Under the pieces are notes generated by a model. It had not been told where the DNA came from. It saw only the letters and a program-made list of their open reading frames with translations, and did no database searches. The position numbers were made by a program, and so were the translations under genes. From assembly GCA_947311475.1 (NCBI GenBank), contig CAMZLK010000064.1:1-49398 (forward strand): a DNA stretch of 49,398 nt. The letters are read 5' to 3'. This DNA comes from an uncultured Desulfocapsa sp. (GTDB lineage Bacteria; Desulfobacterota; Desulfobulbia; Desulfobulbales; Desulfocapsaceae). This document shows positions 9,910 through 31,157 of this stretch, piece by piece (within the stretch, counting starts at the first letter, position 1; each line of letters begins with the position of its first letter).

Positions 9910-12639
9910 TTATTCTGTTGTTATGAGTTTTGCTGTGTGCTCAAAATGTCTATTCTCGGACAGGCTCCTAGGGCAATCCTCGTACAGAGAGCGACCTTGA
10001 ACCAGCCACTGTCTGGGAGTCAGATATCTTTTTTGCCAGTCAAGGAGATCTTTTCCCAGCATTGGCCTGGCTATGCCAAAGCCCTGGCCATACCTGCAAC
10101 CCAATTCCAGAAGCTTGCTCCCTATCTCCGTTGTTTCCACTCCCTCTGCAATGACTTCAAGCTCAAAGGCTTTTGCAAGATCAATCACACCTTTAACAAT
10201 ATGTAAATCGTCTTTACTGGCCAGCATGTCTCGAATGAATGATTGATCAATTTTCAGGGTTTGAACCGGTAAACGCCTTATATGCGTTAGTGTTGAGAAG
10301 CCGGTTCCGTAATCATCCAGGGAAAAACTAACCCCAAAATCGACACACTGTCGGATGATTGATGATATGGTATCCAAATCATTTAATATTCCATTTTCCA
10401 GTATTTCCAGTTCAATAAGACTGCCCTTCACCCCAAATTCGGCCAGGAGAGTTTTCAATTGATTGACAAAACCTGATTTTTGTAGATATTGGGCTGATAT
10501 ATTAATACTGACCACAAATTCAGTCATGGTGTTTTGCCATTGTGCAACCTGTCGCAGGGCACACCGCAGGACCCATTCGTCAAGCTTAGACTGCAGGGTG
10601 TGTCCCTCGATCAGTGGCAGAAAATGTATCGGTGAAAGTAGCCCTTTATCTGGGTGCTGCCACCGAACCAGAGCTTCCGCACCTATGATTTCTCCTGTTG
10701 CCATATCAATTTTTGGCTGGTAAAAAAGACACAACTCATCCTTACTGATGGCAGTTGCAATGCGGGCAATTTTCTCGTTCTTACGCCTGATTATTCGATC
10801 CTGTTCCGGATCAAAAAAATGATAACGGTTACGCCCCTGCTGTTTGGCGATATACATGGCCTGGTCTGCGTGACGGAGCAGCATATCCGGGTCACCAGCA
10901 TCTTTTGGGTAAAGGGTAACTCCAATGCTGGTTGTTACCTGGAAAATATTCCCATTGATTTCGTATGGTACAGTCAGATTTTCTATGAGCCTGGTTAAGG
11001 TTTGAGTACATTGTTGTCTATTCTTCTGATTATTGATAAGCAGGGAAAATTCATCACCACCCCAACGAGCAACGGTGTCTTCTGTCCGTAAATTTTCTAA
11101 CAGGCGATCACCAAATTGAATAAGCAACTGATCACCTGTCTCATGGCCATGAGCGTCATTGATCTCTTTGAATTTATCAAGATCCAGATAGCAGATCGCT
11201 ATTCCACTTTTTGTACGATTGACAAGGGGAAATGCGTGATTCAATCGGTCAATAAATAATCGCCTGTTCGCCAGACGTGTAAGAGGGTCGTAATAGGCCA
11301 GGGTTTCAAGCTGTTTATGGGCATCCTGCAGCGCCTGTTCGTTTTTGATTCTGCTGGTAATATCAGTTGCCACACGTAAATGGACATACCTGCCATCATC
11401 CCAGGGGATTGCACAATCCGCACTATGAAACCATCGCTTATTTTCACTATGCTGAAATTCCATGGTAAGGGTCGGGTTGGGATTACCGTTCTTATCCAGC
11501 AAGTCTGTATCGACACAAAAAGAACACGGCTTCCCCTGGTTCCTATAAAGAGCCTGCCAGCATATCTTCCCGGTTATATCTCCATAGAGGGCATTTGCTG
11601 CAGCATTTGAATAGAGTATTTTGCTAGTCTCTATATCCGTTACATAAACAATGGCATCGATACCGGCAAGTACAGCATTAACACGAATATTGGCTTGTTG
11701 TGCTAACTTTTTCTGTTGCTGTGAAGCAGAAAATTTTACCTGTAGTAGCAGGTGATTATTGTTGAGACGTACCAGTAATAGCAAGCCCCCCACAACCGGA
11801 AAAGAGAGTAAAGCTATTGCACCAAGAAACCAGGGAGAGGTCAGGAGTATCTTCTGGTTTTGAGCTATTTCCCCTTCCAGAAAATACCCTGATCTGCCCA
11901 GAGGGATGGAAATTGGTGTCTGGCTTCCAGTGGAGTTGAAATAGGACTTTTCCACAGGCTTTGTGGAGACCAGTACCTGTTTGTCCGGTCCTATGAGCAT
12001 CAGGCTATTATCGAGATCATCATTTTTGGAGTGCCGCAGCAAGGGAAGTATAACCCTGGCCAAATCAATATCGGCAATAATTAATCCGTTAAGTTGATGC
12101 CGATAGATAATACCAGCTGTGTATCTGGCACTGTATCCTCCGCCTGCATTTTGGTACAGGTGTAATGAAATCCCATCCAGTTCAGCAATATCTGTGGAGT
12201 TCATATCCACCCGATGTTTGTCTGTCTTTTTTGCAGAGGCCAGAATTGTTCCATCCCCATCAATAAAATAAATATTACTATACACAGGTTGATAGAGCAG
12301 TTTTTTTCGTTGGCACAAGTCTTTAAGCTCTCCCCGTATCATTTCCAGGCTGGCCCTCAGGCCATATTTCATGGACATACCCATGGCCCGATTGGCAAAA
12401 AATGCATTAACAGTTGGATTCTTTGTGAATTCTTTAATTTGATCCTGTTGCTCATTGAGAAAATAATTGATTGCGGTCGCCTGGTTTTCGATTGTTAGCT
12501 TGGATTGTTCCAGTAGCGACTGGCGAAGATGAATCTGGCCAAGATATACCAATCCTATCAATAAAGTAATATAGCTCCCGAGGAGAACAGCTCCCAGGCG
12601 GATGGCATTCGTTTTGGTCAGTATTGGCGAATCTTTCAT
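9910..12639 (-). CDS. Membrane sensor with PAS, GGDEF and EAL domains
   Basis: A c-di-GMP turnover protein of 909 residues. Order: a membrane helix near residues 12-32, a periplasmic double-Cache-like sensor, a second helix near 270-290, a PAS domain near 310-430, GGDEF near 445-605 and EAL near 625-870. The GGDEF motif is intact (RWGGDEF), with an RXXD inhibitory site (RTED) five residues before it. The EAL domain keeps EALVRW, DDYGTGFS and the AEGVET segment, so both synthesis and breakdown are possible. The last 20 codons include a half copy of a palindromic repeat (9951-9970). The ATG at 12639 follows the binding protein gene by 23 bases. Confidence 0.9.
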   Translation of the reverse strand: MKDSPILTKTNAIRLGAVLLGSYITLLIGLVYLGQIHLRQSLLEQSKLTIENQATAINYFLNEQQDQIKEFTKNPTVNAFFANRAMGMSMKYGLRASLEMIRGELKDLCQRKKLLYQPVYSNIYFIDGDGTILASAKKTDKHRVDMNSTDIAELDGISLHLYQNAGGGYSARYTAGIIYRHQLNGLIIADIDLARVILPLLRHSKNDDLDNSLMLIGPDKQVLVSTKPVEKSYFNSTGSQTPISIPLGRSGYFLEGEIAQNQKILLTSPWFLGAIALLSFPVVGGLLLLVRLNNNHLLLQVKFSASQQQKKLAQQANIRVNAVLAGIDAIVYVTDIETSKILYSNAAANALYGDITGKICWQALYRNQGKPCSFCVDTDLLDKNGNPNPTLTMEFQHSENKRWFHSADCAIPWDDGRYVHLRVATDITSRIKNEQALQDAHKQLETLAYYDPLTRLANRRLFIDRLNHAFPLVNRTKSGIAICYLDLDKFKEINDAHGHETGDQLLIQFGDRLLENLRTEDTVARWGGDEFSLLINNQKNRQQCTQTLTRLIENLTVPYEINGNIFQVTTSIGVTLYPKDAGDPDMLLRHADQAMYIAKQQGRNRYHFFDPEQDRIIRRKNEKIARIATAISKDELCLFYQPKIDMATGEIIGAEALVRWQHPDKGLLSPIHFLPLIEGHTLQSKLDEWVLRCALRQVAQWQNTMTEFVVSINISAQYLQKSGFVNQLKTLLAEFGVKGSLIELEILENGILNDLDTISSIIRQCVDFGVSFSLDDYGTGFSTLTHIRRLPVQTLKIDQSFIRDMLASKDDLHIVKGVIDLAKAFELEVIAEGVETTEIGSKLLELGCRYGQGFGIARPMLGKDLLDWQKRYLTPRQWLVQGRSLYEDCPRSLSENRHFEHTAKLITTE
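9951..9970. repeat. Half copy of intergenic repeat family B, inside a coding region
   Basis: TATTCTCGGACAGGCTCCTA matches the right arm of the palindromic repeat at 42389-42464 (TATTCTCGGACAAGCTCCT) with one mismatch. It lies in the 3' end of the GGDEF-EAL gene, where on the minus strand it encodes Arg-Ser-Leu-Ser-Glu-Asn. Confidence 0.6.
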
Positions 12640-12662
12640 CACAGTTGCTGGTTGTCGATTAG

Positions 12663-15768: not shown

Positions 15769-16134
15769 ATGATAATTAATCCTTCAGCCCATACAATGAT
15801 TCCCCGCAGGAATTCTTTTAGAAATCGTGCCTTGGGAAGACGTAGAAACACATTCTCTGTTCCAGGAGGGAAACAGTTCTGGTTAGGAGTCTCAAAGGTT
15901 CTTGTCGCAGCATCTGTTATTCTTCTCATTGCCTCATTGCTCCTCAATGGATCAAATGCAAAAGTTTCTGCTGAAATTGACCAGATGGAAAAGATTTACA
16001 ATGAACTGGCCAATACCAATGTTTTATTACGTGCCCAGAAGGCAAGGTTGTTTTCTCCTGAAGCAGTGGGTGAAATAGCGGGGAATCAGCTTGCTATTCA
16101 TATTCCGGTATCCGGGCAGTATCGAAAGTTTTAA
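15769..16134 (+). CDS. ftsL: FtsL-like division protein
   Basis: A 121-residue bitopic protein: a basic cytoplasmic tail of about 40 residues, one membrane helix near 45-62 (VLVAASVILLIASLLL), then a short coiled-coil-like stretch (AEIDQMEKIYNELANTNVLLRAQKA is the region, 65-90). Sequence alone is weak for FtsL, but position between rsmH and ftsI and this topology are typical. FtsL with FtsB and FtsQ activates the FtsW-FtsI synthase, which makes the state of its neighbours here interesting. Confidence 0.75.
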   Translation: MIINPSAHTMIPRRNSFRNRALGRRRNTFSVPGGKQFWLGVSKVLVAASVILLIASLLLNGSNAKVSAEIDQMEKIYNELANTNVLLRAQKARLFSPEAVGEIAGNQLAIHIPVSGQYRKF

Positions 16135-16171: not shown

Positions 16172-18058
16172 ATGGCCAGGAGATCTCGTCTCAATACAGC
16201 AAATAATAAAAGGAGACGTTTATGGATCTTGGCGCTCAGTCTTCTTTGTGTTGCGGTTGTTGTCTGGATATGGCTTGCCTATAAGAAACAGCTGATAAAT
16301 ATTGCGGCTATCTGGCAGGAAACTGTTTCGATTGAAAACTGGGAAACAGCCCCTGTTCGGGGAACTATTTACGATCGGAATTTCAAAGAGCTGGCCCAGA
16401 CACTTGAGCGTGTGTCCATTTATGTCAGACCAAGGGAAGTAAGGGATATATCGGGAACCGCAGCGACTTTGTCAGAATTACTTGGTTTGCCTGAGTCTGA
16501 ATTAATAGCTCAAATGAGAAGGGATTCTCACCTGGTCTGGCTTCGTCGGGATATAGGCCAGGAAGATGAGGATGCTGTGGGAAAACTGGATTTACCCGGG
16601 ATTTACCTGCATCGGGAGCTTGCAAGAAGCTACCCCATGCAGGAATATGCTTCCCACCTGATTGGAAATGCTGAAAACCAATTGGGGTTGTCTGGTGTTG
16701 AACACTATTACAATCGCCTCTTGAATCAGGATCGGGTTCTGCAGAGTGATTTTCCCGCCATTGATCTGAAGGGACTTGGACACACCAGCACTAACGGTCA
16801 TGATCTCGTTTTGACCCTTGACATGAAGATCCAGGCAATACTCGAAAAGTATGTGGCGGGTCTTGGTAAAAAGATGGGAAGTGGCCGCATTACTTCTCTG
16901 TTGCTCGATACTGTGCAGGGTGAGATCATAGCGGGTGTGAGCTACCCCTCCTATAACCTGAACAGTGTCTGGCAGACGGAGAATGAGGTCTTGGAAAATC
17001 TTTTTCTCGCTCCAATGGTTATTCCGGAGGAGATACGGAAATTCTTTCGGGATGCAGCACTTTTGCAAGGTGGTTGGGAACTTGGAAAGCAGGTGTACCC
17101 ATGGAGTCTGGTATCAGATAAAGTAAACTTTTCCAGGCAGCTCAGGCTTTGGGAACGTTTACAGTTGACAACTGATCTGCATGTTGATTTTTCAAGGAAT
17201 AAAAAAGAAGTTAGTGCCCTTGAACAGTATGTTGGTTGTCTGCCTGCTGCAGATCTGGGTACGGTTCCCAAAACAGCTTCTCCCTTAAAAGTGTTGTTGG
17301 GAATGGCTCATCTCTTAAATGGTGGGAAAAAGATACAGCCCCATATTTTAGATCACATCATGGAGAGGCCCGGGCAAAGAGAGTTCTTTTATGATGCTTT
17401 TCATGGGCAGAAGACTGGTAGGAATGTTTTCCCCTCTCTTGTTTCGGCTGAACTGAGAAAGATGTTAAAGGAAAGTGGACGGAAAGGAATCCTGGGCTCA
17501 ACAACCCTTTCCGGTGATACTGTTTCCCTGGTGATGGACAGTTCTGATGCGACAAAGAGCCATTATGTTCGGGATCAGATGTCGTTGGTCATGATTCCTG
17601 CCGAGAAACCGGAACTGATTTTACTTCTTGCTTCAAGGGTAACTGAACTGGAGCCAGCGCTAAGATCTCCGTCATTGAGCGGGAAAATTGATTCTGTTCT
17701 CCCATCAATGGTCGCACTGCAGCAGATTCATCAAAATCTGGCAGATGTGCTTGAGGTGGCAGGCGGGGACGAGCATAATTTTAAGGCAGCAAAAAGGTCA
17801 GAATTACCTCCTTCTGAAAGTTTGGCAGGAATGCTTGATAAGCAGATTAGGGTTATGCCTGATTTGAAAGGTTTGAGTCTGCGCAAAAGTTTACGCCTTT
17901 TGCAGCGTACTGAGGTGAGTATCACTGTAAAGGGAACTGGCCGGGTATTTTCTCAGACCCCAAAGGCCGGGAAGAAAATCAAAAAGGGTGAGCACTGCGT
18001 GTTGACTCTGAAAAGTGATGAGCCCCCTGAAGAAGGGTTGATAAAACACAAGCTATAA
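16172..18058 (+). CDS. ftsI: FtsI-like class B penicillin-binding protein with degenerate catalytic motifs and a PASTA domain
   Basis: The frame has 628 residues and the full plan of a class B PBP: membrane helix near 16-34, pedestal domain with APVRGTIYDRN near 59, LVLTLDMKIQ near 213, the SYPSYN strand near 256, a transpeptidase-like domain and a C-terminal PASTA domain near 558-618 (MPDLKGLSLRKSL). All three transpeptidase motifs are missing. The SXXK box aligns with E-E-I-R-K, Glu287 replacing the catalytic Ser and Lys290 kept. The SXN box aligns with S315-D-K. The KTG box aligns with G-D449-T-V. A KTG at 414-416 is in the wrong place. The frame is intact, so this is a maintained protein rather than a broken gene, probably structural. 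Confidence 0.85.
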   Translation: MARRSRLNTANNKRRRLWILALSLLCVAVVVWIWLAYKKQLINIAAIWQETVSIENWETAPVRGTIYDRNFKELAQTLERVSIYVRPREVRDISGTAATLSELLGLPESELIAQMRRDSHLVWLRRDIGQEDEDAVGKLDLPGIYLHRELARSYPMQEYASHLIGNAENQLGLSGVEHYYNRLLNQDRVLQSDFPAIDLKGLGHTSTNGHDLVLTLDMKIQAILEKYVAGLGKKMGSGRITSLLLDTVQGEIIAGVSYPSYNLNSVWQTENEVLENLFLAPMVIPEEIRKFFRDAALLQGGWELGKQVYPWSLVSDKVNFSRQLRLWERLQLTTDLHVDFSRNKKEVSALEQYVGCLPAADLGTVPKTASPLKVLLGMAHLLNGGKKIQPHILDHIMERPGQREFFYDAFHGQKTGRNVFPSLVSAELRKMLKESGRKGILGSTTLSGDTVSLVMDSSDATKSHYVRDQMSLVMIPAEKPELILLLASRVTELEPALRSPSLSGKIDSVLPSMVALQQIHQNLADVLEVAGGDEHNFKAAKRSELPPSESLAGMLDKQIRVMPDLKGLSLRKSLRLLQRTEVSITVKGTGRVFSQTPKAGKKIKKGEHCVLTLKSDEPPEEGLIKHKL

Positions 18059-21234: not shown

Positions 21235-22314
21235 ATGCTATATCACTTTCTCTATCCTTTACATAACAGTTTCAGCGTATTTAATGTGTTCAGATATATC
21301 ACCGTTCGCTCCATCGGTGGTGCCGTGACCGCATTTCTACTTATGCTCTTCCTTGGCCCCTGGTTTATAAGAAAACTCAAACAACACCAGATCGGGCAGG
21401 TGGTTCGTGATGACGGGCCTGAAACGCATCTTGCCAAGCAGGGAGTTCCCACCATGGGAGGCGTCCTCATTCTCGCTGCCATCACCATGTCTACGCTGCT
21501 TTGGGCAAAACTCACCAATCCCCTGGTCTGGTTGTTGCTTTTTGTCATAATCTTTTTTGGCTTTATTGGTGGCATTGATGATTTTCAGAAAATTAGCAAA
21601 AAGACCAGTGCCGGGCTCAGCGCCAGAGGGAAATTGTTTTTACAGGTTTTTGGTGCATCTGTTGTAGGACTTTTTGTTTTGCTGCACCCTGGATATGATG
21701 GTTTGTTGAGCGTCCCATTTCTAAAAGATATCAACCCTGACCTCTCCTGGTTTTATGTTGTTTTTGCCATAATTGTCATTGTTGGATCATCCAATGCGGT
21801 GAATTTGACAGACGGCCTTGATGGATTAGCTGTTGGCCCCACAATTATTTCGGCATCCGTTTACCTTGTTTTTTCCTATCTGGCAGGTCATGCGATCCTC
21901 GCAGAGTATCTTCAGATTCCTTATGTTCAGGGAGCTGGTGAGCTGGCAGTGTTTTGCGGTGCGATGGTTGGGGCTTGTTTGGGTTTTCTGTGGTTTAACG
22001 CATATCCGGCTCAGATTTTCATGGGAGATGTTGGGTCGCTGGCACTTGGAGGCTCACTTGGCGGGGTTGCCATAATAATAAAGCAGGAGATTCTGCTGGC
22101 CATTGTTGGTGGTGTGTTTGTTATGGAGGCACTCTCTGTTATTATCCAGGTCGGCTATTTTAAGCTCAGCAAAGGAAAGCGGGTTTTTCTTATGGCTCCT
22201 TTTCACCACCATTTTGAAAAGAAAGGCTGGTGTGAACCCAAGATTGTTGTCAGGTTTTGGATTGTATCCATTATTCTTGGTCTGGTGGCTGTGGCAACAT
22301 TGAAATTACGTTAA
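21235..22314 (+). CDS. mraY: Phospho-N-acetylmuramoyl-pentapeptide transferase
   Basis: MraY transfers phospho-MurNAc-pentapeptide to undecaprenyl phosphate, making lipid I in the inner membrane. The 359 residues contain about ten helices and the conserved segments [17 protein letters not shown] (catalytic Asp region), [29 protein letters not shown] and [12 protein letters not shown]. It starts nine bases after murEF. A copy of repeat A begins ten bases after its stop. Confidence 0.97.
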
Positions 22315-22490: not shown

Positions 22491-23888
22491 ATGATAATGA
22501 ATTGGAATCATAAAATAGAAGCCGGACAACGAGCTGTGGTTATGGGCATGGGAGTGTCCGGGCGTGCCGCTGTTGCCTTTCTGATATCTAAAGGGGCAGA
22601 GGTTTTTGTAACAGATAGCCGTGAGTTTACTGATCTCTCGGAGAAAGATCAGTTGTACCTGCGTGAAAATAAGATTTCTTTTGAAGGTGGTGCACATACA
22701 AAAAAGTTTATGTCGCAGGGCGACTTCATTGTAATAAGTCCGGGAGTACCAACGGATTTGCCTCTGTTGGATGAACTCAGGGAGGAAGGTATTCCAATTT
22801 TAGGAGAGCTTGCCCTTGCTGCTCCATATTTTACAGAGTGCGTGGTAGCCATTACTGGAACCAATGGTAAAACAACGGTAACATCACTTGTTGGAGAATT
22901 ACTCCAGGCAGCAGAAAAAAAAGTATTTGTTGGTGGAAATATTGGTACACCGGTTCTTGATTATTTACGGCTTGGTGAACGTGCTGAATTTCTGGTTCTT
23001 GAACTTTCAAGTTTCCAGTTGGAGTCGGCTGGTTCTTTTTGCCCTCATATTGGGATTCTGTTAAATATTACTCCGGATCACCTGGATCGCCATAAGAATA
23101 TGATTCAATATGCTGCTGCTAAAATGAAAATGTTTGTTCATCAAAAAGCTTCGGATAAGGCAGTGATCTGTAACGATGATCCGATGTGTCAGCAAATAAA
23201 ACCCCTGCTTAACGGGCAGGAGAAATATTGTTTTGGAAATTTTGAGAGTGGTTGTGCCGCAAAAGGGAGTGGACGTGAGTTCACAATCACCATCGACGGT
23301 CAGATCGATAACTATTCACTCAAAGGAACATCGCTTGATTCCCATACCGGATTGTTGAACAGCCAGGCAGCAGTACTTGCAGTTTCGCTTCTTGGCTGTG
23401 AACAGACAGATATTAAAAAAGGTTTACTTTCGTTTGCTCCAGCACAGCATCGTTTACAGCATGTGAGAACAGTGGATGGAGTTGACTATTACAATGATTC
23501 CAAGGCAACCAACACAGGAGCAGTGCTCAGTGCCCTTGCATCCTTTCCAGGCAATATTATTCTTCTTGCCGGTGGAAGAGATAAAGGTGAAGAGTATACA
23601 GTTTTAAGAGAGCTGGTCTCAGAGAAAGTAAAGGCACTGGTTTTATTCGGTGAGGCGGCGGAAACCATTGACTTGTCAATGGGAAACGTAAGTGTAAGCC
23701 ATCATGTTTCTTCCATGGAAGACGCTGTTAATAAGGCTGCTGACATTGCCAACCCTGGAGACATTGTTTTACTGGCTCCAGCATGTTCCAGTTTTGATAT
23801 GTTCGATAACTACTGCCATCGTGGTGATGTCTTTATGGAAAATGTGCAGAGCCTGCCGCAAAAATCGAAGGAGAAGGCGGCCAGATGA
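22491..23888 (+). CDS. murD: UDP-N-acetylmuramoylalanine--D-glutamate ligase
   Basis: MurD adds D-glutamate to UDP-MurNAc-L-Ala. The 465 residues show the Rossmann-like N-terminus VVMGMGVSGRAAV, the P-loop GTNGKTT, the NITPDHLDRHKN motif and YYNDSKATNTGAV. Starts are possible at ATG 22491 or 22497; neither has a ribosome site close by, because repeat A lies immediately upstream (the nearest AGGTGAAG is about 20 bases away). The stop overlaps the murG start by four bases (ATGA). ftsW, which usually lies between murD and murG, is absent. Confidence 0.95.
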   Translation: MIMNWNHKIEAGQRAVVMGMGVSGRAAVAFLISKGAEVFVTDSREFTDLSEKDQLYLRENKISFEGGAHTKKFMSQGDFIVISPGVPTDLPLLDELREEGIPILGELALAAPYFTECVVAITGTNGKTTVTSLVGELLQAAEKKVFVGGNIGTPVLDYLRLGERAEFLVLELSSFQLESAGSFCPHIGILLNITPDHLDRHKNMIQYAAAKMKMFVHQKASDKAVICNDDPMCQQIKPLLNGQEKYCFGNFESGCAAKGSGREFTITIDGQIDNYSLKGTSLDSHTGLLNSQAAVLAVSLLGCEQTDIKKGLLSFAPAQHRLQHVRTVDGVDYYNDSKATNTGAVLSALASFPGNIILLAGGRDKGEEYTVLRELVSEKVKALVLFGEAAETIDLSMGNVSVSHHVSSMEDAVNKAADIANPGDIVLLAPACSSFDMFDNYCHRGDVFMENVQSLPQKSKEKAAR

Positions 23889-24979
23889 ATTCTCCGATAC
23901 GACTTATGCTAACAGGCGGTGGTACAGGTGGACATCTTTTTCCTGCCATTGCAACAGCTGAAGCATTATGTGACAGGTTGCCTGGAAGTGAAGTACTTTT
24001 TGTGGGAACAAAGAGAAAGATGGACAAAGCAAGCCTTGAACAATATGGGTATGCCACACGTTCTATCCATTCAAAGGGGTTAAAGGGGAAGAATTTTTTA
24101 TCACTCCTTCAAGGGCTGCTTGTATTACCATTATCCTGCCTTGAAGCAATGTTTCACATAGTCCGCTTCAGGCCTCATCTGGTTGTGGGGGTTGGCGGCT
24201 ATGTGACCGGGCCGGTGGTTCTAGCAGCAAGGCTTCTTGGGAAAGCAACTCTTATCCATGAACAGAATTCGGTACCAGGACTTGCCAACAGAAAACTTGG
24301 AAGTTTGGTTTCAAGGATCTGTCTTTCCCTCCCTGGAAGTGAAAAAAGCTTTCCTGAAGAAAAAACAGTTTTGACAGGAAACCCTGTTCGCAAAGAACTC
24401 CTGGAATTATCTGAGAAGAGGAAGGTCACAAAGAAAAACACCTTTACCTTGCTGGTTCTAGGGGGGAGCCTTGGTGCCCATGGAATTAATAAACTGGTTA
24501 CAGGGGCCTTTGCACTGGGTTTTTCAGATATGGAGCAGATAAAGGTTATCCATCAAACAGGCCCTCTTGATGCTGATACTGTGAAAGCCGATTATAAAAA
24601 GAATAATATTAATGCCACGGTTGCTCCATTTTTTAATGATATGGCAGCGATCTATGGTGAGGCGGATTTACTGGTTTCGCGCGCAGGAGCCACAACTCTT
24701 GCAGAGCTCTCAGTTCTGGGAAAACCTGCACTACTTATTCCGTATCCTTATGCTGCAGATAATCATCAGGAAAAAAACGCAGAGTTTTATGTGCAGGGCG
24801 GCGGTGCAAAAATGTTAACCGAAAAAAATCTCACGGCCAAAACACTTGCTGAACAATTAGTAGAACTCGTCGGGAATCCGGAAGAATTAGAAAAGATGGG
24901 TACTGCTATGCGCAACAAGGCATTCCCAAAAGCAGCGGAACGAATAGTAGATGAATGTCTAAGGTTGATGAACTCGTAA
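23885..24979 (+). CDS. murG: Lipid II synthase MurG (UDP-GlcNAc transferase)
   Basis: MurG adds GlcNAc to lipid I at the cytoplasmic face of the membrane. The 364 residues include the glycine-rich GGGTGGHLFPA loop, LIHEQNSVPG, the GGSLGA segment, SRAGATTLAEL and the NHQEKNA donor site. The start overlaps murD. The last codons before the stop are Asn-Ser-stop, read from AACTCGTAA; repeat A begins within these bases, so the repeat supplies the stop codon. The C-terminus otherwise has normal length. Confidence 0.97.
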   Translation: MNSPIRLMLTGGGTGGHLFPAIATAEALCDRLPGSEVLFVGTKRKMDKASLEQYGYATRSIHSKGLKGKNFLSLLQGLLVLPLSCLEAMFHIVRFRPHLVVGVGGYVTGPVVLAARLLGKATLIHEQNSVPGLANRKLGSLVSRICLSLPGSEKSFPEEKTVLTGNPVRKELLELSEKRKVTKKNTFTLLVLGGSLGAHGINKLVTGAFALGFSDMEQIKVIHQTGPLDADTVKADYKKNNINATVAPFFNDMAAIYGEADLLVSRAGATTLAELSVLGKPALLIPYPYAADNHQEKNAEFYVQGGGAKMLTEKNLTAKTLAEQLVELVGNPEELEKMGTAMRNKAFPKAAERIVDECLRLMNS

Positions 24980-27509: not shown

Positions 27510-28517
27510 GTGAAAAAAAAATCATTGCTTGAGAAAATAAGAGATCTTTTTAAAAAGGGGGTAGCCACCGGCAAAAAGTCCTCTTCGGTTTTTGCACAAA
27601 AGTTTGGAAAACAACCACACTATAAATCGAATCATCAGGGATCCGGAATCGGCAAAAAAAGCTTTCTGGATAAGTGGAGGAGAAAGAGGGAAGATCGGAA
27701 ACATCTAAAAAAGACACGATCAAATGCGTGGAATAGGGAAAAGTCCCAACGGTCGCCCATAAAAGGAATAGTAGTCATGGGAGTGGTCTTGTCAGGACTC
27801 TTTTTTCTTGTAACCGGTCCCATGCAGAAGCTTTATGGAAATATTAAATATTTTCGCATTCAGGAGATTGAAGTCATTGGTTGTGTGAAAACAAATCCAA
27901 CGAGTTTACGAAAATTTGCAGACATCTCCTATGAGATGAATATGCTGACAATTGACTCTGCGGAGATACAAAATCGACTTGAGGAACACCCCTGGGTAAA
28001 GAAAGCAAGTGTCAGACGGATCTGGCCGTATGCGATAACTGTCGCAATTAGTGAATATCGACCCCAGGCCCTGGTTGTCCAGGAGGGGAAGGGTGAGTTT
28101 GAGTATCTTGATCGAAAAGGAAATGTCTTTGCTGCAGTAGGGCAGGGGCAGGAGATGGATTTTCCGGTAATTACAGGTCTTGATACGTTCGCTACAGATA
28201 TGGAAAAAAAGGAATTGTTGGGAAAGGCAATTTCATTTTTAAAGTTGGCTGGGCGGAATAATCCTAATTTACCCACTCAAAATGTTTCTGAAATTCATTT
28301 TAGCAGTGACGGCGGATTAATTTTATATCTGGTTGAACACCCTTTCCCCATTTATTTTGGCAAGGGGGAAATAAAACGGAAGTATTACCAGTTACGCAAA
28401 GTTTTAGAAGTTTTGTATAGGAAAAAGAGAGGGAGTGCCATAATCGATAATGTGGCATATATCCGTATGGATTATCAGAAAGATAAAGTTTTAGTGGCGC
28501 AAAGGCAGGCAGGGTAA
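27510..28517 (+). CDS. ftsQ: Cell division protein FtsQ
   Basis: FtsQ is the bitopic scaffold of the divisome. The 335 residues begin with an unusually long basic cytoplasmic tail of about 85 residues (many Lys and Arg), then a membrane helix near 87-104 (IVVMGVVLSGLFFLVTG), a POTRA domain (FRIQEIEVIGCVKTN, then EEHPWVKKASVRRIWP) and the beta domain. The start is GTG at 27510. It is intact and precedes ftsA by three bases. Confidence 0.92.
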   Translation: MKKKSLLEKIRDLFKKGVATGKKSSSVFAQKFGKQPHYKSNHQGSGIGKKSFLDKWRRKREDRKHLKKTRSNAWNREKSQRSPIKGIVVMGVVLSGLFFLVTGPMQKLYGNIKYFRIQEIEVIGCVKTNPTSLRKFADISYEMNMLTIDSAEIQNRLEEHPWVKKASVRRIWPYAITVAISEYRPQALVVQEGKGEFEYLDRKGNVFAAVGQGQEMDFPVITGLDTFATDMEKKELLGKAISFLKLAGRNNPNLPTQNVSEIHFSSDGGLILYLVEHPFPIYFGKGEIKRKYYQLRKVLEVLYRKKRGSAIIDNVAYIRMDYQKDKVLVAQRQAG

Positions 28518-28520
28518 GGA

Positions 28521-29798
28521 ATGGATGAGAAAGAAGATTTAAAACCAATTATTATAACTGACACCGAAAAAGACGATGAGTATTTCGACGAGCGGGAACC
28601 TGGCGAACTTGTAGTTGGTCTGGATATCGGCACCACAAAAATATGTTGTGTTGTGGGCGAAGTGTTTGACGACGGAATTGATGTGATTGGTGTTGGTACA
28701 GCTCCTTCAGTTGGCTTGAAAAAAGGAGTTGTTGTTAATATCGAATCCACGGTGAAATCAATCCGGCAGGCTGTCAGGCAAGCTGAAGAGGTCGCAGGGT
28801 GCGATTTGCGTACCGTTTATGTTGGGATCGCAGGTAATCATATTAAAGGTTTTAACAGCCCTGGGATCATAGCCATAAATGGACGGGAAATCAGGGAAGG
28901 TGATGTTGAGGATGTTATTGTTGCAGCCCGGACTGTGAAAATATCTGAGAATCAACAGATAATCCATGTTTTACCCCAGGAATATATGGTCGATGATCAC
29001 ACCGGAATTCAAAATCCTCTGGGAATGACAGGCGTTCGTCTGGTCACCAATGTCCATATTGTCACAGCGGATATGGCGGCAGTTCATAATCTATACACCT
29101 GCTGTGATAAAGCCGGTCTGGAAGTGGCAGATATGGTGCTTGAATCCATTGCATCTGCCCATGCGACACTTTCCCCTGATGAAATGGAGTTAGGCGTTGC
29201 ACTGCTTGATATTGGTGGAGGTACCACAGATCTTGCAGTGTTTTGTGATGGTACCATTCGTCATACCTGCGAAATAGGTCTTGGCGGGCATAACCTGACC
29301 AATGATCTTTCTGTCGGACTCCGCACGCCGCTGCAGGATGCCGAACGCTTAAAGGAAGACTTTGGATATGCAATTTCTTCAGTTGTTAAGCCAAATCATG
29401 TGGTGGATGTTCCTACTGTCGGTGACCGAGAGCCACGTAAAGTCACCCAGAAAGTTCTGGTTGATATATTGCAGGCTAGAATGGTCGAAATCCTGGAAAT
29501 GGTGAATCAGGATCTTATTAATTGTGGCTTAAAAAACAGGATTAATGGTGGCATTGTCCTCACAGGTGGAACAGCGCTTCTTGCAAATCTTGCAGATCTT
29601 GCCGAGCAGATTTTTGATTTACCGGTGCGTATTGGATACCCGGCTCAGATCGGCGGAAAAGTGGAGGAAGTTCAGACCCCACGCTGCACAACTGGTGTCG
29701 GTTTGGTGATGTATGGTCGTCAGCATCAGGTTGATAATCACTACAGCGACAGTTCCATGGTTGGCCGGATGAAAGATTGGCTCAGAAAAATAATGTAA
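28521..29798 (+). CDS. ftsA: Cell division protein FtsA
   Basis: FtsA is the actin-like membrane tether of FtsZ. The 425 residues contain the ATPase motifs VVGLDIGTTKI, LLDIGGGTTDLAVF and GGIVLTGGTALL, and a C-terminal amphipathic segment (MVGRMKDWLRKIM) for membrane binding. An acidic extension of about 28 residues precedes the actin fold. The ribosome site is AAGGAATGG-like just before the ATG, and the ftsQ stop is three bases upstream. Confidence 0.96.
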   Translation: MDEKEDLKPIIITDTEKDDEYFDEREPGELVVGLDIGTTKICCVVGEVFDDGIDVIGVGTAPSVGLKKGVVVNIESTVKSIRQAVRQAEEVAGCDLRTVYVGIAGNHIKGFNSPGIIAINGREIREGDVEDVIVAARTVKISENQQIIHVLPQEYMVDDHTGIQNPLGMTGVRLVTNVHIVTADMAAVHNLYTCCDKAGLEVADMVLESIASAHATLSPDEMELGVALLDIGGGTTDLAVFCDGTIRHTCEIGLGGHNLTNDLSVGLRTPLQDAERLKEDFGYAISSVVKPNHVVDVPTVGDREPRKVTQKVLVDILQARMVEILEMVNQDLINCGLKNRINGGIVLTGGTALLANLADLAEQIFDLPVRIGYPAQIGGKVEEVQTPRCTTGVGLVMYGRQHQVDNHYSDSSMVGRMKDWLRKIM

Positions 29799-29921
29799 TT
29801 ATTTTACGATTTTTGTAGAAATTGGTTTAAGTGCCAGGCTGTAAATGCTATAATTTGTTTGTTTAAATTCTATGATATTGTGAAGATAAGTGTTGCACAT
29901 TTCGTGAACACGGGAGATACT

Positions 29922-31157
29922 ATGCCGTTTAGAATGGCGGAAGAAAAAGAAAATTGTGTAGCAGTGGTAAAGGTTTTTGGTGTAGGTGGTGGTGGCGGAA
30001 ATGCCATTAACACAATGGTTGAGAACCGTCTTCAAGGTGTTGAGTTCATCACTGCAAATACTGATAAACAGGCACTTGATCAATCCCGCGCTGATGTATG
30101 CCTGCAGATCGGCCCGGGAATCACCAAAGGCCTTGGTGCGGGAGCTGATCCTGAAACCGGTGAACAGGCTGCACATGAATCCATTGATGAAATTACAGAT
30201 AGCCTCAAAGGTGCTGATATGGTTTTCGTGGCCGCCGGGCTTGGCGGTGGTACCGGAACGGGTGCCGCACCGGTTGTGGCCAAAGCTGCAAGGGAGCTTG
30301 GTGCTCTGACTGTTGCTGTGGTAACCAAACCTTTCCATTTTGAGGGTAAGTTCCGCATGCGTAATGCCGAACAGGGCTGGGAAGAGCTACGGAAATATGC
30401 CGACACTATTATTACTGTTCCCAATGATCGTCTGCTTTCTCTTATGCAGAAAAATTCCAAACTCTCTGATATGCTCAGCATGGCTGATAAGGTTTTGCTC
30501 CAGGCGGTGAAAGGAATTACCGATCTGATTAATGTGGCAGGATTAATGAATGCCGATTTTGCTGATTTACGTACAGTGATGCGTGAAGTGGGGCCTGCAA
30601 TCATGGGAACCGGTTTTGCTGTTGGCGAAAATCGTGCAACAGAAGCTGCCAATCGAGCAATTGACAATCAGCTCCTCGAAGATGTTGGAATTGATGGTGC
30701 ACGCGGTTTACTTATTAATATATCTGCCTCGGAAGAGTCCTTTACCATGGCTGAGTTTATGGAAGCATCTGCTCTTATCCAGGACAAGGTGGATGATGAA
30801 GCCAAAGTGGTTATTGGTGCTCTGTATGATGACGCACTCGGTGATGAACTTCATGTAACCGTAATTGCCACTGGTGTCGGTGAGTCAGTTCCAGAGAAAA
30901 AGAATCTTGTGCAGGTTGATATTCCTGCCCAAAACTCTCCCCAGCCAACTGAAGTTGAAGAGGCTCGTCCTGTTAATCAGACTCCGGCATCTCCTAACCG
31001 ACCAAGCGGGAATTCTATTTTTCCATCTTCAAATTTTAACGGTTTTGAAAATCACGGGATTTCGTCAGGCGATAAGACGCATTCTGTTAAAGAGTCAAAG
31101 CCCTGGAATGAAGAATATATGGAAACACCGACTTATTTGAGGAAAAAGGCAAATTAA
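29922..31157 (+). CDS. ftsZ: Cell division GTPase FtsZ
   Basis: FtsZ forms the Z ring. The 411 residues start MPFRMAEEKE at the ATG at 29922, preceded by GGGAGA; the open frame extends further upstream without a start signal. The tubulin signature GGGTGTG is in LGGGTGTGAAPVV, and the T7-loop aspartates lie in NADFADLRTVM. A linker of about 70 residues rich in Pro, Ser and Asn leads to a C-terminal peptide, TPTYLRKKAN, the usual partner-binding tail. The gap of 123 bases after ftsA holds no gene. Confidence 0.97.
   Translation: MPFRMAEEKENCVAVVKVFGVGGGGGNAINTMVENRLQGVEFITANTDKQALDQSRADVCLQIGPGITKGLGAGADPETGEQAAHESIDEITDSLKGADMVFVAAGLGGGTGTGAAPVVAKAARELGALTVAVVTKPFHFEGKFRMRNAEQGWEELRKYADTIITVPNDRLLSLMQKNSKLSDMLSMADKVLLQAVKGITDLINVAGLMNADFADLRTVMREVGPAIMGTGFAVGENRATEAANRAIDNQLLEDVGIDGARGLLINISASEESFTMAEFMEASALIQDKVDDEAKVVIGALYDDALGDELHVTVIATGVGESVPEKKNLVQVDIPAQNSPQPTEVEEARPVNQTPASPNRPSGNSIFPSSNFNGFENHGISSGDKTHSVKESKPWNEEYMETPTYLRKKAN

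Follow-up and report, generated by a model that had tools for sequence, protein, structure and literature searches.

A conserved FtsI homologue without transpeptidase motifs in the dcw cluster of an uncultured Desulfocapsa and its relatives

How is the septal wall made in a bacterium whose division cluster carries an FtsI with none of its catalytic motifs? FtsI is the septal transpeptidase and cross-links septal peptidoglycan, and it naturally binds a SEDS partner, in the pair FtsW-FtsI. The window, by which we mean the whole stretch of 49,398 nucleotides analysed here from an uncultured Desulfocapsa sp., holds a dcw cluster in which an FtsI-like protein, hereafter FtsI*, lies between ftsL and murE, as expected for FtsI. 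The genes of the cluster that matter here are the following:

15769..16134, forward strand: ftsL, 121 aa, named by its position in rsmH-ftsL-ftsI, the PF04977 match (17.5 bits) being below cut-off
16172..18058, forward strand: ftsI*, a class B PBP homologue without catalytic motifs, 628 aa
18097..21225, forward strand: murE-murF fusion, 1042 aa, with two Mur ligase sets in a single frame
21235..22314, forward strand: mraY, PF00953 match of 125 bits
22491..23888, forward strand: murD, from the Pfam search of the window
23885..24979, forward strand: murG, identified by sequence and position and overlapping the murD end
27510..31157, forward strand: ftsQ (by Pfam) with ftsA and ftsZ (both identified by sequence and position)

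The ftsL product is likely the partner of FtsI*. The slot after murD, which is the ftsW site in the clusters from outside the order that were read through ftsW, is empty here, with murD and murG overlapping. Across 80 named loci from relatives that include Desulfocapsa, Desulfofustis, Desulfopila, Desulfogranum and Candidatus Electronema (Desulfocapsaceae and Desulfobulbaceae), the usual order, where covered, is mraZ-rsmH-ftsL-ftsI*-murEF-mraY-murD-murG-murC-murB-ftsQ; ftsL was undetected in some of them, the Electronema locus shows the cluster only to rsmH-ftsI*, and a RodA-like match was found in none of the 80 dcw loci. The murE-murF fusion recurs in 62 of the 63 named relatives where both parts were found, and in genomes G119, G129, G257 and G294, the two genes being separate in the remaining clusters compared. 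Upstream of the cluster, on the reverse strand at 9910-12642, the window also encodes a 910-aa protein with GGDEF- and EAL-like stretches, recognised by eye.

The frame of ftsI* begins with ATG and has no stop inside, its 628 codons being open as an earlier note on this DNA had claimed. Four parts of the protein can be delimited:

16208..16279, forward strand: N-terminal helix, residues 13-36, from the AlphaFold2 model, a likely membrane anchor judging by its hydrophobic sequence
16349..16801, forward strand: pedestal domain, residues ~60-210, from the PF03717 match and conserved alignment columns
16802..17731, forward strand: transpeptidase-like domain without catalytic motifs, residues ~211-520, from the AlphaFold2 model, structure comparison and motif columns
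17852..17992, forward strand: PASTA domain, residues 561-607, from a PF03793 match above cut-off

The pedestal and PASTA domains, previously described as recognisable, are so by profile as well: PF03717 (PBP_dimer) matched residues 60-170 with 45.9 bits against a cut-off of 24.4, PF03793 matched with 36.6 bits, and the RGxIYDR, RxYP and GLxGxE stretches of the pedestal are conserved in the columns of two alignments (A1 and A2). The Pfam Transpeptidase profile reached 18.0 bits, below its cut-off of 22.1, over residues 367-439. The AlphaFold2 model predicts that the PBP transpeptidase-like fold is retained, in agreement with the fold proposed from the letters.

To read the catalytic sites, motif columns were set by alignment with 11 intact FtsI from the same phylum, in which SXXK, SXN and KTG were each present in all 11. 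In these columns FtsI* has:

17030..17032, forward strand: the codon of Glu287, where SXXK would have its acylated Ser
17132..17140, forward strand: S321-R322-Q323, in place of SXN
17516..17524, forward strand: D449-T450-V451, in place of KTG

The earlier note had reported the loss of all three motifs, with Glu287 where the acylated Ser should be and no KTG box, and the alignment agrees on each count; its SXN box, read as S-D-K at 315-317, has to be moved to S321-R322-Q323, the Asn/Asp being missing either way. The loss is common to the order. We compared 126 rows (121 distinct cores), which come from three partly shared sets (50 sequences of the family, 80 named ones and 40 of the order) after removal of identical sequences and of the fragments L087 and L123, and found the Ser of SXXK in 2 and its Lys in 9, both together in none, KTG in none, and an SXN-like pair (S plus N/D) in 4, against 11 of 11 for each motif in the controls. 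Additional members of families f10, f11 and f12 showed neither SXXK nor KTG. Lys290 is indeed kept in this genome, as had been pointed out, but with Lys in that column in so few rows it is not a conserved remnant. Normal motifs elsewhere in the proteins were also looked for, and none stood at the right place. P[GA]SxxK occurs somewhere in 4 of the 126 rows (at residues 98, 529, 596 and 678), a K/R-S-G-S triplet lies within residues 380-520 in two, and the loose pattern [KRH][TS]G, present somewhere in 68 of 126 and in all eight further rows (seven from outside the order and one of f11), never falls on the KTG columns. Since the predicted fold is kept, FtsI* could be imagined to act by an unusual route with another nucleophile; we consider this very improbable, since the nucleophile column is varied across the order (mostly E, G, L, K, T, P, A or V), which leaves no conserved replacement nucleophile, and the Lys of SXXK is itself as rare as stated.

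With none of the 126 order rows keeping SXXK or KTG, FtsI* is neither a product of chance nor a local pseudogene. A local frameshift or assembly artefact was ruled out by clean relatives, 16 of the 19 genus relatives searched having a clean full-length match at 51-76% identity; of the other three, G021 matches over a stretch that contains a single TGA, contig ends interrupt G016 and G023 gave no match. In another genome, assembled as a single contig (G027), ftsI* is broken into a 240-aa and a 438-aa frame (L087). The gene is under purifying selection. Whole-gene dN/dS between congener pairs was 0.099-0.166 in seven of eight pairs, the dS of the eighth not being estimable and several other dS values lying near saturation; the safest two pairs (dS ~0.63-0.65) gave 0.166 and 0.118. 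Over 153 pairs, mean pN/pS was 0.37 for the gene and highest, at 0.56, in the N-terminal 59 residues. The strongest constraint lay at

17267..17371, forward strand: residues 366-400, mean pN/pS 0.178 over the 153 pairs

where dN/dS was 0.016-0.042 in the three pairs in which it could be estimated. The proposal of a maintained pseudoenzyme is in line with these dN/dS values of 0.10-0.17 and with a frame kept across the order. These values, and the kept frame, weigh against FtsI* being a decaying leftover of little function, held by its place in an essential operon. That reading would account for the disappearance of entire domains elsewhere in the phylum and for identity to our FtsI* dropping to 22% within the A2 rows, but we judge it improbable.

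Does the SEDS partner of FtsI persist? We sought ftsW in the genome from which the window comes (95.6% complete, 220 contigs) and did not find it; the only SEDS match is RodA, whose gene adjoins that of an intact PBP2 with STYK, SCD and KTG. A misnamed FtsW was ruled out by model cut-offs and by a tree. The protein scored 412.3 bits against the RodA model TIGR02210 (cut-off 336.7) and 297.4 bits against the ftsW model, below its cut-off of 337.5; in the SEDS tree, which has several long outside branches and order rows all from one family, the 30 family rows fell on the RodA side and the 9 dcw FtsW rows formed a single clade (100/100). A second FtsI in this genome was equally ruled out, given that a PF00905 search, answering the suggestion to look for a second class B PBP, returned one full class B PBP, the PBP2 beside RodA; its other matches were three GT51 proteins, FtsI* itself, one frame that looked carboxypeptidase-like by eye and one weak hit. 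Two of the GT51 proteins were read as 631 aa and 784 aa long, and the third is a 1135-aa frame (L004 106-3363, G000:C143) whose transpeptidase part carries a long insertion; GT51 frames of ~1100 aa recur in many genomes of the order.

Across the order, for which we used 159 genomes each at least 90% complete, one SEDS match was found in 151, two or three in 5 and none in 3. The five comprise G006 (8% contamination), with two complete copies; G107 and G143, each with an additional fragment where a contig ends; G176 (7% contamination); and G113, in which one gene is cut into two frames. This last genome is a single contig, its rodA being split at L208 7656-8788. A true FtsI/FtsW pair encoded elsewhere or lost in assembly gaps might be suspected from the 220 contigs and 95.6% completeness of our own assembly, but it is hardly credible when, of the 14 order genomes on a single contig, 13 show one SEDS match and no more, the fourteenth having that split gene, and when PBP2 is the only full class B PBP that the PF00905 search gave in our genome. 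The A1 profile matched 158 of the 159 genomes and, as it also picks up PBP2, this number alone is no proof of FtsI* in each; the sample for the class-level search comprised the same order only.

Does the loss extend beyond the order? We sampled 119 genomes of the phylum, 112 of them outside the order, with at least two SEDS in 91 of the 112 and one in 21. We retrieved the clusters of nine outside genomes in which ftsW follows murD, and in each of them FtsI is intact. Among the 21 single-SEDS genomes, three have an intact dcw FtsI (G201, G202 and G236), G201 being also one of the nine. In the remaining 18, the ftsI slot between rsmH and murE could be read in 16 (all but G256 and G234, the dcw cluster of the latter not being located), and FtsI was motif-less or shortened in all 16. 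The single SEDS gene adjoins PBP2 in 10 of the 18 (G200, G205, G209, G225, G230, G234, G249, G253, G257 and G290), and it is by this neighbourhood that its RodA identity was read in those ten; in G208, G233, G275 and G294, murG comes next after murD, without an intervening ftsW. The state of the slot differs among families. In f25 FtsI is full-length, with a transpeptidase match of 101.8 bits in the G200 member, but has ELGELAG for the box that is EPGSTFK elsewhere; the slot contains frames of 457-569 aa in f56, f64, f68 and f69 and a protein of 440 aa in f34. By eye, the frames of 248-329 aa in f30 and f55 show a hydrophobic segment at the N-terminus, and a profile match (97.7% to FtsI*) reveals a remnant of PASTA in them; those of f33, at 334-340 aa, keep the pedestal (97.8%, FtsI* residues 58-257), with no PASTA found, and a hypothetical protein of Caldimicrobium thiodismutans has the same sequence as one of them. 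FtsI activity and FtsW have therefore disappeared, either at the same time or in succession, with the place of ftsI filled in all 16. In a tree of four dcw proteins FtsW loss needs two changes; a single origin may also hold, as keeping all 22 FtsW-less rows together was not rejected (p-AU 0.44).

Which enzyme, then, would build the septum? Class A PBPs are capable of both polymerisation and cross-linking. We hypothesise, with slightly more confidence than doubt, that FtsI* is a non-catalytic divisome adaptor which recruits or switches on another synthase, for which a class A PBP is the likeliest candidate; both the adaptor role and the partner are inferred. The N-terminal helix would anchor FtsI*, which would join FtsL/FtsQ at the Z-ring; the pedestal and PASTA domains could keep the synthase and its product in place or sense them, and a class A PBP would polymerise and cross-link the septum. 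The loss of FtsW may have preceded that of FtsI activity or coincided with it, and the idle transpeptidase domain could then erode freely. The divisome scaffold or regulator of a different synthase that the earlier note had in mind is supported, its function being predicted. GT51 proteins of the class A PBP type were found in 67 of 68 FtsW-less genomes (50 of the 159 order genomes, chosen mainly for completeness, and 18 from outside), with a single match, in frames of 614-733 aa, in nine of the 67; as they were counted in FtsW-less genomes alone, this speaks only weakly for the class A PBP reading. The exception, G129 (L239, 90% complete, 2.0 Mb), has a dcw cluster with FtsI*, and no SEDS, PBP2 or class A PBP was detected in it.

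The main rival is that RodA-PBP2, the last SEDS pair, is coupled to the divisome by FtsI* and makes both side wall and septum. It is the sole SEDS pair found in our genome, and with one SEDS kept in nearly all genomes of the order RodA may be the septal polymerase; FtsI, moreover, naturally pairs with a SEDS protein. A pair conserved for elongation, however, needs no septal role, and G119 (L240-L242), which is 99% complete, has three GT51 matches and FtsI* with neither SEDS nor PBP2 found, which favours class A PBPs over RodA-PBP2, although an assembly gap may explain their absence. On balance we regard septum synthesis by RodA-PBP2 as rather unlikely, yet the foremost alternative to class A PBPs. 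The remnants differ in the domain they keep, the pedestal in f33 and PASTA in f30 and f55, so no common binding surface is apparent. More tentatively, at somewhat less than even chances, a large branch of the phylum (the order and nine further families, including that of Caldimicrobium) may have abandoned FtsW-FtsI, with class A PBPs building the septum and FtsI a pure adaptor that is being dismantled domain by domain while its dcw place is kept.

FtsI* resembles FtsI/PBP3 in dcw position, pedestal, predicted fold and PASTA domain (present in four of five intact phylum FtsI tested), and differs from it in lacking SXXK, SXN and KTG and in having no FtsW partner that we could find. The closest known case is Clostridioides difficile, in which class A PBP1 is reported to replace FtsW-FtsI (PMC10693644), and the class B PBP3 to promote septum synthesis with no need of catalysis and to co-precipitate with PBP1 (PMC12539705). 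As judged from sequence, our genome likewise has no functional FtsW-FtsI pair and has class A PBPs available, and the non-catalytic division role of PBP3 resembles, by analogy, the one predicted for FtsI*. The two differ in that C. difficile keeps SpoVE-SpoVD in its dcw cluster, whereas here the dcw FtsI itself appears dead and no dcw SEDS is left, and in that PBP3 is catalytic, although the role does not require this activity, whereas FtsI* has none of the motifs. The absence of ftsW is already published for some taxa: one paper reports it in two cable bacteria and in two genomes of Desulfobulbus (PMC7873302), and another describes ftsW as lost from the cluster in Thermodesulfobacteria (PMC8871954). 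The first of these papers, in its accessible passages, lists FtsI with other proteins that the division plane recruits and does not question its activity; the two cover lineages overlapping ours, and loss or erosion of the FtsI motifs is not reported in those parts of them. FtsI inactivation in these bacteria was not found in the open PMC literature searched.

The FtsI finding, as far as gene sequences tell, is real, conserved and broader than first claimed. FtsW-FtsI was deemed universal for septal wall synthesis before the C. difficile work (PMC10693644), and the bacteria described here would be a second, broader exception, far from clostridia and visible from sequence alone. The lineages concerned include cable bacteria, whose division is under study. 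FtsI* would be a conserved pseudoenzyme left behind, offering a natural test of the non-catalytic roles of FtsI and, if our reading is true, beta-lactams specific for FtsI should not block division in these organisms, while moenomycin should.
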